From positions 2,592,001 to 2,656,000 of the forward strand of contig NZ_JAVDWM010000001.1 of the NCBI RefSeq assembly GCF_031457495.1: a stretch of DNA of 64,000 bases, read 5' to 3'. The notes under the pieces were generated by a model. It saw only the letters and a program-made list of their open reading frames with translations. It did no database searches and was not told the origin of the DNA. The DNA is from Sphingopyxis sp. BE259 (GTDB lineage Bacteria; Pseudomonadota; Alphaproteobacteria; Sphingomonadales; Sphingomonadaceae). Below, piece after piece: positions 3,591 through 14,025 of this stretch; position 1 is the first letter of the stretch, and every line of letters starts with the position of its first letter. Both the position numbers and the translations under genes were made by a program.

Positions 3591-3673
3591 GCACAGGTTG
3601 CTAACGCGGTGTTAGCCATTCCACGCTAAGAAACCCCCGGGGACTGCAGCGATGCCAGTCATTGGAGAATATG

Positions 3674-4876
3674 ATGCGTCATTTCCGCACCGCCGTTTCG
3701 TTGGCGTTGCCGCTGATTGCGGCAACGATGCTGACCGCGCCCGCCCATGCCGACGTCAAGGACGGCGTCGATGCGTGGCAGCGCGGCGACTATCAGGCGG
3801 CGGTCGCCGCGTGGCGCGCCGAGGCGCTGGCCGGCGATGCCGATGCCCAGTTCAACCTTGGTCAGGCCTATAAGCTCGGCCGCGGCGTTCCCGCCGATCT
3901 GGTTCAGGCCGAAAGCTGGTATCGCCGCGCCGCCAAACAAGGGCATTTGCAGGCCGAGGATAATCTTGGCCTCGTCCTGTTCACCGCCAACCGCCGCGAC
4001 GAAGCAATGCCGTTCATCACCCGCTCGGCCGAACGCGGCGAACCGCGCGCCCAATATGTCCTTGGCACCGCGCTGTTCAACGGCGACCTCGCGCCGCAGG
4101 ATCTACCGCGCGCCTATGCGCTGACCAAGCGCGCCAGCGACGCCGGGCTCGGCATCGCCTCGGCCCGCCTGGCGCAGCTCGATATGCTCATCCCGCTCGA
4201 CCAGCGCCAGCGCGGCATCGCGATGCTGCCCGCGATCGAAAAGAACGAGGCGCGCGCGCGCCTGACGGCGGTGACCGCCGCGGCGCCCGCTGCCGCGAAA
4301 CCCGCCCCCGCGTCGCCGATCAAGACCGCCAGCCTGCCCGCCTCGGCGCCCGGCACCAGCTATACCCCGCCGCCGGTGATCGCCGCCGGGCCGCCGCCCG
4401 CCAATTTGCCGCCGACCCGGCTGCCCAGCCCGGCCGCGCAGGCGGCCGCGACGGCCGCAGCCGAAGCCACCGCTGCCGCCACCGCCGCGACGGACAGCGG
4501 CAAACCGGGAACGACCTACGCGCCGCCGCCCGCGAACGACAAGCCGTCGCCCGCACCGGTAGCGGCCAAACCCAAGCCGCCCTTCAACAACGATCCCATC
4601 ACGATCCGCGAAACCCCCACCCCGGCCCGCCCCGGCGGCGGCAACAGCCCGTGGCGCGCCCAGCTCGGCGCCTTCGGGGTCGAGGCGAACGCCCGCAACC
4701 TGTGGGCCTCGCTCGGCAAGAAACACCCCGCCGTCGCCGCACGCCAGCCGGTTTACGTCAAGACCGGTAAGGTCACCCGCCTCCAGACCGGCGGCTTTGC
4801 GAACAAGGGCGAAGCCAACAACTTCTGCGCCGCGCTCAGCAAGAGCGGCCAGGCGTGTTTGGTGGTGGATAAGTAA
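3674..4876 (+). CDS. Secreted Sel1-repeat and SPOR-domain protein
   Basis: This 400-residue exported protein has a signal peptide ending in TAPAHA (about residue 24). Sel1-like repeats follow (about 27-165, such as GDADAQFNLGQAYKLGRGV and QGHLQAEDNLGLVL), then a long Ala/Pro-rich linker and a C-terminal SPOR domain (about 325-400). GGAG at 3664-3667 lies six bases before this ATG, which favours it over the ATG three bases earlier and the TTG at 3662. It is divergent from the ParA gene. The architecture mirrors the SPOR lipoprotein at 508-1926, so both probably act at the septal wall. Confidence 0.8.
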   Translation: MRHFRTAVSLALPLIAATMLTAPAHADVKDGVDAWQRGDYQAAVAAWRAEALAGDADAQFNLGQAYKLGRGVPADLVQAESWYRRAAKQGHLQAEDNLGLVLFTANRRDEAMPFITRSAERGEPRAQYVLGTALFNGDLAPQDLPRAYALTKRASDAGLGIASARLAQLDMLIPLDQRQRGIAMLPAIEKNEARARLTAVTAAAPAAAKPAPASPIKTASLPASAPGTSYTPPPVIAAGPPPANLPPTRLPSPAAQAAATAAAEATAAATAATDSGKPGTTYAPPPANDKPSPAPVAAKPKPPFNNDPITIRETPTPARPGGGNSPWRAQLGAFGVEANARNLWASLGKKHPAVAARQPVYVKTGKVTRLQTGGFANKGEANNFCAALSKSGQACLVVDK

Positions 4877-5075: not shown

Positions 5076-5948
5076 CTACTTTATCGCTCCCGCCTTCTCC
5101 GCCGCCAACCGCTTCGCCAGCGCCTGACGCGACCGATCAGCATAAGCCCGGCAAGCCCCCGGATTGGCGTTATACCGCCCCTCCCCCGCATTGTCGGGGT
5201 GCGCCGCAATCAGGATGTCGCACGGCAGCGCCTCCATCGTTCGCCAGCTTTGGGCAAAGGCCGCGACGAACGGCGCTCCCGCGGCGCTGCTGAACTTATA
5301 ATCATCCGCCGACACCGGATTCAGGCTCGACGCAAAGACGATCGTCTTGCACCCAAGCTGCTCACAAGCCCGCCAGCTCCAGCTCATGTTGCCCATCGTA
5401 TGCCCCGGCGTCGCATGGGCGGTGATCGCAATCTTGCCCAGCCGCAGCACCTCGCCGTCCGCCATCACGCGCACCGGCGTCGTCACCGCGGGCCAGCTGC
5501 CGCCATAGGCCAGCTGCGGATCGTCGGCGGCGTGCCGCCCCGATTTCAGCCCTTCGGCGCCGCGCGCACTCGCAACCACCGTCGCGCCCGTGTCGCGCGC
5601 CAGCGCCGCCAGCCCACCGGCATGGTCGAAATGCGGCTCGGTGCTCAGAATAAATTTGATGTCTTTGGGATTGAACCCCAGCGCCCGGACATTCGCCAGG
5701 ATCGCAGGCGCTGCTTGCGGCAACGCGCCATCGACCAGCACCAGCCCGGCGCCGGTATCGATCAGCGCCACGCTCATCCCGCCGAACCCGACCAGATAGC
5801 TGGTGCCCAGAATTTTCTCCGGCTTGGCGGGCGCCAGCCACTGCGCCGTGCGCGACGTCACGATCGGTTGGGTCAGCGGATCGGCCGCGGGCACCGGCGC
5901 TCCGTTCGCCGCGGCAAGCCACGCGAACAGACTGATTGCTTCGAACAT
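5076..5948 (-). CDS. Subclass B3 metallo-beta-lactamase with Glu in the first zinc site
   Basis: This 290-residue protein belongs to the metallo-hydrolase fold and should open the ring of beta-lactam antibiotics in the periplasm. The start at 5948 has AAGGAG six to seven bases upstream; an N-terminal hydrophobic stretch ends in APVPA. The signature that is normally HxHxDH reads EPHFDH (E104, H106, D108, H109). The other ligands are present: H183 in PGHTMG and H250 in AAHPDN. ASSLNPVSADDYKF is typical of B3 enzymes. A Glu at the first ligand position is known from SIE-1 of Sphingobium, so this is probably a B3-E type enzyme. It is divergent from an AmpR-like regulator, which suggests inducible expression. 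Substrate range cannot be read from the sequence. Confidence 0.85.
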   Translation of the reverse strand: MFEAISLFAWLAAANGAPVPAADPLTQPIVTSRTAQWLAPAKPEKILGTSYLVGFGGMSVALIDTGAGLVLVDGALPQAAPAILANVRALGFNPKDIKFILSTEPHFDHAGGLAALARDTGATVVASARGAEGLKSGRHAADDPQLAYGGSWPAVTTPVRVMADGEVLRLGKIAITAHATPGHTMGNMSWSWRACEQLGCKTIVFASSLNPVSADDYKFSSAAGAPFVAAFAQSWRTMEALPCDILIAAHPDNAGEGRYNANPGACRAYADRSRQALAKRLAAEKAGAIK

Positions 5949-6018
5949 TCCCGTCTCCTTCGCCGCCAAAATGCCCATTGGGTGCGTGCCCGACAAAGCA
6001 TCATTCCTCGACAAAGCC

Positions 6019-6033
6019 ATGAGAATTTCTCAT
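6019..6033. promoter_or_regulatory. Perfect palindrome, candidate AmpR-like operator (T-N11-A)
   Basis: ATGAGAATTTCTCAT has 7-base arms around a central T and contains T-N11-A (6020-6032), the LysR-type recognition pattern. It lies 71 bases upstream of the beta-lactamase start, in the divergent region shared with the LysR gene. The assignment to that regulator is inferred from position. Confidence 0.6.
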
Positions 6034-6040
6034 AAGTCTC

Positions 6041-6136
6041 GTTATCCCGGACTTGATCCGGCGTCCATTGCCAGCAGCCCCCGCATGGACGCCGGATCAA
6101 GCCTGTCCTGAGTTTGTCGAAGGGTCCGGGGTGACG
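6041..6136. repeat. Mosaic palindrome between lactamase and regulator genes
   Basis: The left part (6041-6067, CCGGACTTGATCCGG) pairs with ATGGACGCCGGATCAAG from 6085. The right arm is then interrupted by CCTGTCCTGAGTTTGTCGAA, a piece typical of family 2, before it closes with CCGGGGTGACGA. It therefore looks like a chimera of two palindrome families, and it separates the operator from the regulator start. Confidence 0.65.
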
Positions 6137-6165
6137 AGGCGAGACAGGTCGAGATAGTAAGCCCA

Positions 6166-7068
6166 ATGGACCGCGCCCAACTGCCACTCAACGCGCTGCG
6201 CGCCTTCGAAGCCGCCGCGCGCCATCTCAACTTCACCCGCGCCGCCATTGAACTCTGCGTCAGCCAGGGCGCGGTCAGCCACCAGGTCGCGCAGCTCGAA
6301 CGCCGCCTCGGCACCCGCCTGTTCCATCGCCTGCCGCGCGGCCTGGCGCTGACCGACGAAGGTCATGCACTCGTCCCCGTCGTCGCCGACGCCTTCGATC
6401 GCGTCGCCGCGACGCTCGATCAATATAGCGGCGGCCACTTTCGCGAGACGCTGAAAGTCGGCGTCGTCGGCACCTTCGCCACCGGCTGGCTGCTCCCGCG
6501 CCTCGACGCCTTCGCGCGCGCGCATCCCGGCATCGATCTGCGGATCGCAACCAACAACAACCGCGTCGATCTGGCGGGCGAGGCGCTCGATTTCGCCATC
6601 CGCTTCGGCGACGGCGCGTGGCACGGCACCCACGCCGAACCGCTGCTCGCCGCCCCGCTGGCGCCGCTCTGCACCCCCGCGATCGCCGCAAAGCTCAAAA
6701 GCCCCGCCGATCTGATCCCCGAACGCCTGCTGCGCTCGTATCGCGCCGACGAATGGGTCCGCTGGTTCACTGCAGCGGGGTTGGCCGCACCGCTCCTGCG
6801 CGGACCGATCTTCGACAGCAGCACGCTGATGGCGACCGCTGCCGCCGCGGGCCAAGGCATCGCCCTCGCGCCGCCCGCCATGTTCACCCGCGAACTCGCT
6901 TCGGAAATTCTCGTTCAGCCCTTCCGCATCACCATCGACGCCGGTCGCTACTGGCTCACCCGCCTGATCTCGCGCGCCGAAAGCGATGCCATGGCGCGCT
7001 TTCGCGGCTGGCTGTTCGATGAAATTTCGTCAGCGATGACGCTAGCCTCGCCGCCCGATGCCGAATAG
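6166..7068 (+). CDS. ampR: AmpR-like LysR-family transcriptional regulator
   Basis: This 300-residue regulator resembles AmpR of Enterobacteria along its length. The N-terminal winged helix has LNALRAFEAAARHLNFTRAA (about residues 8-27) and the recognition helix region SQGAVSHQVAQLE. The effector domain has VGVVGTFATGWLLPRL, NNNRVDLAGEALDF and LLRSYRADEW, all hallmarks of the AmpR branch. AmpR senses cell-wall muropeptides and UDP-MurNAc-pentapeptide and controls a divergent beta-lactamase gene. Here the divergent gene is a B3 metallo-enzyme, not ampC. Other AmpR-like regulators (for example GcvA) share the fold, but the divergent lactamase supports this assignment. The start has only a weak ribosome site. 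Confidence 0.8.
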   Translation: MDRAQLPLNALRAFEAAARHLNFTRAAIELCVSQGAVSHQVAQLERRLGTRLFHRLPRGLALTDEGHALVPVVADAFDRVAATLDQYSGGHFRETLKVGVVGTFATGWLLPRLDAFARAHPGIDLRIATNNNRVDLAGEALDFAIRFGDGAWHGTHAEPLLAAPLAPLCTPAIAAKLKSPADLIPERLLRSYRADEWVRWFTAAGLAAPLLRGPIFDSSTLMATAAAAGQGIALAPPAMFTRELASEILVQPFRITIDAGRYWLTRLISRAESDAMARFRGWLFDEISSAMTLASPPDAE

Positions 7069-8689: not shown

Positions 8690-9574
8690 CTACCCCAGCA
8701 CCCAGCTCCGCCGCGGATAGCCCTGCGCCCATAACAATGCCGTCAGGTCATGGTGCCGCACCACCGCCGCCGCGGCCTCGCCCGCCGCCGGGTGCGGATA
8801 ATAGCCCACGCCCAGCCCGGCCGACGTGATCATCGGAATGTCGTTGGCGCCGTCGCCGACCGCCAGCGTCTCGGCCAGCGGCAGGCCGTGCTTCGCCGCC
8901 TCGGCCTTCAGCGTCTCCAGCTTCGCGGCGCTATCTACGATCGGCTCGATGACCCGCCCGGTCAACTTGCCGTCCTTAATCTCCAGCGCGTTCGCAACCA
9001 CCTTGTCGAACCCGATCGCCTCGCCCACCGGCCCGGCAAAAGCGGTAAAGCCCCCCGAAACCAGCACCGAATACGCGCCATGCGCCTTCATCGTCTGCAC
9101 CAATGTCCGCGCCCCGCGCGTCAGCTTCACCCGCTCCATCCGGCATTCGACCAAGGTGGCTTCGGGCATCCCGGCCAGCAACCCGACGCGCTCGATCAGC
9201 GCGGCGCGGAAATCGAGTTCGCCGCGCATCGCGCGCTCGGTAATCGCCGCGATCTGCGGCTTCAGCCCGGCATAATCGGCCAGTTCGTCGATGCACTCGA
9301 CGGTGATCATCGTCGAATCCATATCGGCGATGATCAGCTTCTTCGTCCGGTCGCCCTGCGGCTGGACGATCGTGTCGAGCGCGCCATGGTCCATCAACGC
9401 CAGTTCGGCGCGCGCGCTGACCAGGCTGCCCTGAAAGACGATGTCGGCGGCATCACCGACATCCAGCCAGTGCGGCGCGCCGACATCGTGGCCTGTGGCG
9501 TCGAGCCGGTCGATCGCTTCGCGAACCACCTCGTCGGTCAGCTTCCCGGCTGCTATCAGCGTCGCGACGAACAT
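8690..9574 (-). CDS. serB: Phosphoserine phosphatase
   Basis: This enzyme removes phosphate from L-3-phosphoserine, the last step of serine synthesis. The 294-residue protein has an N-terminal regulatory part (about 1-75) and a HAD phosphatase domain with DMDST (nucleophile D84), the second motif VSGGF and the fourth motif [10 protein letters not shown]. The start at 9574 has AAAGGAG five bases upstream. Its ATG overlaps the start of the divergent miaA gene within the tetranucleotide CATG. Length and motifs are normal for the family. Confidence 0.93.
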
Positions 9575-10532
9575 GGCTACTCCTTTATCTTCTTTCGGCC
9601 CAAGGCCTCCTGTCGCACTTATCGCTGGCCCCACCGCCAGCGGCAAGAGTGCAATGGCAGTACATCTGGCAAAAGCCGTCGGGCGCGGCGTCGTGATCAA
9701 TGCTGACGCCAGCCAGGTCTATGCCGACCTGCGGATCCTGTCGGCGCGCCCGAGCGACGAAGAAATGGCAGGCATCCCCCACCATCTGTTCGGTCATGTC
9801 AACGCCGCCGAGGCGCATAATGCCGCGCGCTGGGCGGATGACGCGCGCGTCGCGATCGCCGCCGCGCATGCCGCGAGCGAAATCCCGATCCTCGTCGGCG
9901 GCACCGGGCTGCATATCCGCACGCTGCTCGACGGCATTTCGCCGATACCCGACATCGACCCCGATGTTCGCGCCGCAGTCCGCGCGCTGCCTGTCGCCGA
10001 AGCCCACGCCGCGCTGACCCGCGAAGACCCCGCCACCGCCGCCCGCCTCAATTCCACCGACACCACCCGCATCGCCCGCGCGCTCGAAGTCGTCCGCTCG
10101 ACCGGCCACCCGCTGGGTCATTGGCACGCCGCGCACACCGGCGGCATCGGCGACACGATCACACTCGCCCCGCTCATTCTCCTCCCGCCGCGCGAGTGGC
10201 TGCGCGATCGCTGCGACCAGCGGCTGGTCCAGATGTTCGACGGCGGCGCGGTTGCCGAAGTCGAAGCGCTGCTCGCCCGCAACCTCGACCCCGATCTTCC
10301 CGCCATGCGCGCGATCGGTGTCCCGCAGATTGCGCAATATCTGACCGGTACGATCGACCGCGACCAAGCGCTCACGCTGACGCAAGCCGCCACGCGCCAA
10401 TATGCCAAACGCCAATATACCTGGTTCCGCAACCAGCCGCCCGCCGACTGGCCGCGCCACAGCGAGTCACTAAACAATGATTCTATTGATGAATTAGCAA
10501 TTATATTACGTCAAAGCCTGTTGACAGGATAG
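9573..10532 (+). CDS. miaA: tRNA dimethylallyltransferase
   Basis: MiaA adds the dimethylallyl group to A37 of tRNAs that read UNN codons. The 319-residue protein has the P-loop GPTASGKS (residues 19-26), the substrate motif [19 protein letters not shown] and the C-terminal segment [14 protein letters not shown]. The ATG at 9573 is the only sensible start before the P-loop; no GTG or TTG lies between. It overlaps the serB start codon on the other strand and has no clear ribosome site. The last 25 or so codons are unusually AT-rich compared with the rest. Confidence 0.93.

Positions 10533-12910: not shown

Positions 12911-14025
<1,115 letters not shown>

Follow-up and report, generated by a model that had tools for sequence, protein, structure and literature searches.

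A B3-E metallo-beta-lactamase gene of Sphingopyxis is paired with a divergent ampR-type gene across a conserved spacer block

A stretch of 64,000 nucleotides from the chromosome of Sphingopyxis sp. BE259 (the window) was analysed. It carries a gene for a subclass B3 metallo-beta-lactamase, blaB3-E, in which glutamate occupies the first zinc-ligand position. Directly adjacent and in divergent orientation is a gene for an AmpR-type LysR regulator (Table 1). The enzyme is related to SIE-1 of Sphingobium indicum, the regulator accompanies this enzyme type throughout the genus, and the spacer between both genes contains a conserved block. Very probably the gene encodes a chromosomal, exported di-zinc B3-E beta-lactamase and forms a module with the divergent ampR, by which it would be controlled.

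Table 1. Positions of the features discussed, numbered from the first letter of the window.
Feature	Position	Strand	Basis
SPOR/Sel1-like TPR gene, flanking marker	3662..4876	+	read from translation, weak NCBIfam matches
blaB3-E, subclass B3 metallo-beta-lactamase, 290 aa	5076..5948	-	translation, family profile, alignments
Codons of the motif E104-P105-H106-F107-D108-H109	5622..5639	-	computed from gene coordinates
Shine-Dalgarno AAGGAG, 6 bases before bla ATG	5955..5960	-	sequence
Conserved 44-bp block, T-N11-A dyad ATGAG-N5-CTCAT	5991..6034	-	spacer comparison
Imperfect palindromic repeat, CGTCACCCCGGA...GATCCGG type, between block and ampR start	6042..6140	.	by eye, ends approximate
AmpR-type LysR regulator, 300 aa, divergent from bla	6166..7068	+	structure matches, NCBIfam, locus survey
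serB-like gene, other flanking marker	8690..9700	-	read from translation
Amidase_2 domain, AmpD-type candidate, sole match in genome	43325-43711	-	profile match

The translated protein was called Lactamase_B by Pfam and passed the cut-off of the NCBIfam subclass B3 model NF033105 (255.5 bits, cut-off 240). Its zinc ligands are E104-H106-H183 / D108-H109-H250, i.e. the EHH/DHH type. In the alignment the standard ligand positions 118, 196, 120, 121 and 263 read H, H, D, H and H. At the remaining position, 116, E104 was aligned with the Glu of 7luu and with the His of AIM-1, SMB-1, Rm3 and MEM-A1. The top match among solved structures was 7luu (E=2.4e-127), followed by SMB-1, Rm3, AIM-1 and MEM-A1; 7LUU is the structure of the B3-E enzyme SIE-1 (Wilson et al., 2021, as given in excerpts of PMC10318434). 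A first-pass annotation, made from the letters of the window, had named a B3 enzyme with Glu in place of the first ligand His, had listed all six ligand positions and had named SIE-1 as precedent. All of this was borne out by the family cut-off, the translation and the alignments, in which the motif is unshifted.

An alignment of 110 sequences was assembled from the window protein, 100 B3-E loci and nine His loci, duplicates counted. Ligand column 116 contained E in 101 and H in nine sequences, a set skewed towards E because one of the search patterns was TEPHFDHA. The five remaining ligands were invariant (110/110). Of the relatives sample, the best 80 of 93 were kept. After removal of identical frames and addition of five solved sequences the ligand column comprised 92 E and 13 H. 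Ten of the 251 positions examined separated these groups, i.e. one residue was present in at least 95% of the E group and in at most 10% of the H group. Among them was P105, the residue right after the ligand Glu, which was found in 92/92 E and in 0/13 H sequences. P211 was equally present in 92/92 E sequences, and all 13 H sequences had Ala there. In a tree from this sample, which is skewed towards B3-E and includes no B3-Q, all 92 B3-E sequences, SIE-1 among them, formed a single clade apart from the 13 His sequences (support 0.991). That a sequencing error or a shifted alignment has turned a His into this Glu is of negligible probability. Glu is present in 101 of the 110 aligned sequences, and a change from His to Glu at the ligand requires two base changes (Pedroso et al., 2020; PMC7381538). 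An error, a shift or a chance motif is refuted by the 7luu match, by the 110-sequence alignment and by the tree alignment.

The enzyme type has been described before. In 111,330 genomes Pedroso et al. (2020) found 1,449 B3 proteins in 1,383 genomes, 1,150 with HHH/DHH, 162 with QHH/DHH, 90 with EHH/DHH and 47 with HRH/DQK ligands. The EHH/DHH type was named B3-E; twelve genes were expressed, and the B3-E members conferred resistance in E. coli (PMC7381538). According to excerpts of a 2023 review, SIE-1 is the only characterised B3-E member. Its kinetics and structure are available; it acts on every major class of beta-lactams with a preference for cephalosporins, and its two-zinc site is retained (PMC10318434). 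The window protein has the EHH/DHH ligands and the EPH-x-DH motif in common with SIE-1 and is 70.6% identical to it over 265 positions; the genus is different and about 29% of the aligned residues differ. With AIM-1, SMB-1, Rm3 and MEM-A1 it shares five of six ligands at 43-46% identity. These four enzymes have His at 116 where the window protein has Glu, E, S or G in place of P105, and Ala in place of P211. A naming table lists SIE and SIQ from Sphingobium indicum and SSE from Sphingopyxis sp. The last one is entered as 'Sphingopyxis sp. Enzyme?', question mark included, and is credited to Pedroso et al., 2020 (PMC10740994). SSE goes unmentioned in the main text of that study (PMC7381538). 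Going by its table entry, SSE shares the genus with the window enzyme, and its source is the study which defined B3-E. By its sequence, the window enzyme is one more example of the already described B3-E type.

The first-pass annotation had called the type rarely studied. This is correct as far as characterised enzymes are concerned, SIE-1 being the only one according to the review excerpts; in genomes the type is not rare, as judged by the 90 of 1,449 B3 proteins above and by its presence in 21 of the 36 genomes surveyed within the genus (see below). It had also expected that confirmation would widen this branch of the family. Little widening is to be expected because B3-E is a named type that conferred resistance in E. 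coli, kinetics and a structure exist for SIE-1, and SSE has its place in the naming table.

MBL-fold enzymes are often promiscuous. Possibly, then, the window protein is an MBL-fold hydrolase with another physiological substrate, e.g. a lactone, and Glu116 marks a changed function; Glu116 is indeed a minority ligand by the counts above (PMC7381538). We consider this quite improbable. The closely similar SIE-1 is active on all major beta-lactam classes (PMC10318434, excerpts), B3-E enzymes conferred resistance (PMC7381538), the cut-off of the B3 equivalog model was passed, and the linkage to AmpR points to a role connected with beta-lactams. As a side observation, SIE-1 is nearer to a second Sphingopyxis enzyme, that of locus L019 (82% identity), which is itself 77% identical to the window protein, hinting at an exchange between Sphingobium and the genus of the window.

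The start codon of bla is the ATG at 5948 on the minus strand. An alternative start at 6020, yielding 314 amino acids, was dropped in favour of 5948, which has a Shine-Dalgarno sequence. The upstream start would fall within the conserved spacer block, and L010, a close relative, has an open frame of only 297 amino acids, too short for the longer version. The plus strand of the same interval contains merely an antisense frame. Compared with nine relatives, dN/dS of bla was 0.155-0.253, thus the gene is under purifying selection. The N-terminus (5898-5948) reads MFEAISLFAWLAAANGA; an acidic residue and zero basic ones precede the hydrophobic stretch, and close relatives are similar. This would be unusual for a Sec signal peptide and counts against the predicted export. 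A plasmid location was rejected, as the window belongs to a single 3.67-Mb contig. A search of 72,556 plasmid records yielded eight matches to the window enzyme at E <= 1e-20. Three of them, two from Sphingobium and one from Sphingomonas, were 60-80% identical and located on records of 290 to 893 kb. The other five were below 60%, two being LMB-1 on Enterobacter and Citrobacter plasmids. Therefore, relatives do occur on large sphingomonad replicons.

The divergent gene encodes a regulator which matched best with the AmpR effector-domain structures 5mmh (5.9e-77) and 3kos (9.6e-63), from Citrobacter freundii and relatives. The next non-AmpR match was GcvA (6.3e-54), despite a GcvA chain that spans the full length. 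The best NCBIfam model was PenR with 385.6 bits, below its cut-off of 625; it is a narrow model of the 'exception' type, Burkholderia by name. An AmpR model was absent among the 25 of 46 NCBIfam matches listed. In the alignment the regulator keeps G102, T103, D135, S219 and Y262 at AmpR-equivalent positions, presumably the effector contacts of AmpR. Owing to a gap, S219 and Y262 carry numbers lower by two than their AmpR counterparts.

With AmpR from Citrobacter freundii and its relatives the window regulator shares effector-domain homology and the divergent arrangement. In Stenotrophomonas, the L1/L2 genes are under AmpR-type control. Unlike in the Citrobacter and Stenotrophomonas systems, the window regulator directly adjoins a B3-E gene. 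AmpR-type control of L1, also a B3 enzyme, has been published, judging by a title cited in PMC6598227 (Okazaki and Avison, 2008). Further, according to excerpts of two reports, the LysR-type regulators VarR of Vibrio cholerae and CARR of P. diazotrophicus act on the metallo-beta-lactamase genes VarG and CAR-2, and VarR, like the window regulator, is divergent from its target (PMC5595328, PMC12434095). VarG/VarR and CAR-2/CARR are likened to the window pair by description only, which does not imply that either enzyme is B3-E. Thus, as far as these excerpts go, LysR-type control of other metallo-beta-lactamases is already in print. Titles and abstract beginnings in the open-licence literature yielded no report of the ampR-B3-E pair or module, of its conserved spacer or of an exchange with a His enzyme within the genus, and nothing on smbR together with SMB-1.

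How regularly do enzyme and regulator occur together? We surveyed 111 loci, a number that includes duplicates and both copies of the window itself. The regulator was present in 83 of 102 B3-E loci, and in all 83 AmpR-bearing loci it was divergent from bla. The 28 loci with no AmpR match in the stretches available were the nine His loci and 19 B3-E loci; one of the latter, L056, offered only 111 bases upstream. A sample of the family comprised 159 genomes including our own, of which 73 had a bla match (75 matches in total). The 30 loci most similar to the window protein were typed. Three of these (L009, L011 and L016, all Glu) overlapped with the earlier set. Among the 27 new loci, six were EHH/DHH (49-70% identity) and 21 HHH/DHH (37-45%). 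An AmpR match was found in 4/6 Glu and 0/21 His loci, which had short flanks, and a strict spacer core in 3/6 and 0/21, respectively. Hence AmpR is not obligatory for B3-E, as no match was obtained in 19 of 102 loci nor in two of the six Glu loci of the family sample. Separately, we noted a second B3-E group with 53-55% identity (L102-L104 and L106-L112), consisting of Sphingomonas and one Caulobacter MAG; its loci reach 6 kb upstream and contained no AmpR match.

Within the genus 36 genomes, our own and 35 others, were searched at E <= 1e-20. In 21 the bla match was 72-100% identical and always of the Glu type; in 12 it was 42-46% identical and always of the His type. Three genomes had no match (G009, G018 and G021, which are 88, 85 and 95% complete), and none of the 36 had two. 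Among named loci, the nearest five (L039-L043, 86-90% identity) belong to Sphingopyxis strains. Outside of the genus one of 24 genomes had a bla match, at 37% identity. AmpR, searched at E <= 1e-70, was detected at 78-100% identity in all 21 genomes with the Glu enzyme, in none of the 12 with the His enzyme and in none of the three with neither. Three of the 21 AmpR matches (G034, G020 and G005) are recorded as having a single internal stop. Two His genomes, G004 and G035, have a LysR gene at 53-54% identity, located on contigs other than those with their bla.

The spacer between bla and ampR contains a 44-bp block with a T-N11-A dyad, an arrangement of the kind bound by LysR regulators. A core pattern recovered it from 67 of the 72 distinct spacers compared; in the other five it was visible by eye with a mismatched core. 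For 55 of the 67 spacers, the start of the block precedes the ampR match by 7-11 bases. The remaining 12, all from the genus and including the window, show a distance of 63 to 147 bases; there, to judge from visual inspection, a palindromic repeat or part of one fills the gap on the ampR side and leaves the block intact. The block is probably the AmpR operator and promoter region. The AmpR-type protein might also be a mere neighbour or serve other genes, and the beta-lactamase be expressed constitutively. The B3-E loci with no AmpR match, both in the survey and in the family sample, and the extra palindromic repeat in the window spacer point in this direction. On the other side are the co-occurrence in the genus (21/21 Glu vs 0/12 His genomes), the uniformly divergent orientation and the conserved block. 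We consider an AmpR without control over the beta-lactamase unlikely.

AmpR control of the B3-E enzyme may be envisaged as follows. In the enzyme Zn1 would be held by Glu116, His118 and His196, and Zn2 by Asp120, His121 and His263. A zinc-bound hydroxide would open the beta-lactam ring as in SIE-1. bla and the divergent ampR would constitute one module. By analogy with AmpR systems, cell wall damage would release muropeptides which are imported by AmpG and sensed by AmpR, and AmpR would then turn on the enzyme from the conserved spacer block. AmpG and an AmpD-type amidase may feed into this induction, and the genome has candidates for both: AmpG was found above cut-off in the own genome, and the Amidase_2 domain is listed in Table 1. 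The genome also has three above-cut-off matches to Beta-lactamase2 (class A-type). The best one, G000:C1:3336293-3337072, may encode a serine beta-lactamase or a related protein.

Through this context, many B3-E genes of environmental sphingomonads can be assigned to a conserved ampR-bla module. Their presumed natural role, inducible self-protection, is thus directly testable in an environmental host. Moreover, the genus offers a natural comparison of genomes with a Glu and genomes with a His enzyme.

Finally, the chromosomal site was compared in regions from 17 of the remaining 20 genomes of the genus with a B3-E gene. As in the window, the ampR-bla pair adjoins a Sel1/SPOR-type gene in 16 of the 17 regions, the exception being G019; in 10 of the 16, serB follows on the far side of the pair. 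In His genomes the same Sel1 gene was accompanied by neither bla nor ampR (9/9 regions, from 9 of 12 genomes). In four of these nine regions, where only marker genes were compared, the next marker was serB at a distance of 28 to about 1,630 bases; in the other five serB was absent from the stretch compared. The His-type bla was located away from the Sel1 and serB markers in all 12 regions. A tree of the site was calculated from the two flanking genes, i.e. from a single locus, in 27 genomes (17 Glu, 9 His, 1 with neither) and rooted at the midpoint. One derived group comprised 16 Glu genomes together with the genome without either enzyme. G003 (His) branched next to it, followed by G007 (Glu), with the remaining His genomes further out. 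This topology would fit one or two enzyme exchanges in the genus. Tentatively, we propose that in one Sphingopyxis lineage a Glu116 enzyme under AmpR control, located at a fixed chromosomal site, may have taken the place of a canonical His116 B3 enzyme that had a lipobox-like N-terminus and was encoded elsewhere. If so, Glu116 would not be a stray active-site variant. It would be part of an inducible, soluble resistance module which is kept together with its operator across sphingomonads.

Two minor observations are added. The His-type B3 enzymes of the genus (L030-L038) have a lipobox-like N-terminus, L-A/V/T-G-C, in 9/9 cases, unlike the Glu type, suggesting that they may be membrane-anchored lipoproteins. 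And motifs of the CGTCACCCCGGACTTGATCCGG-type spacer repeat recur in the window near 12.9 kb (12913-12959).
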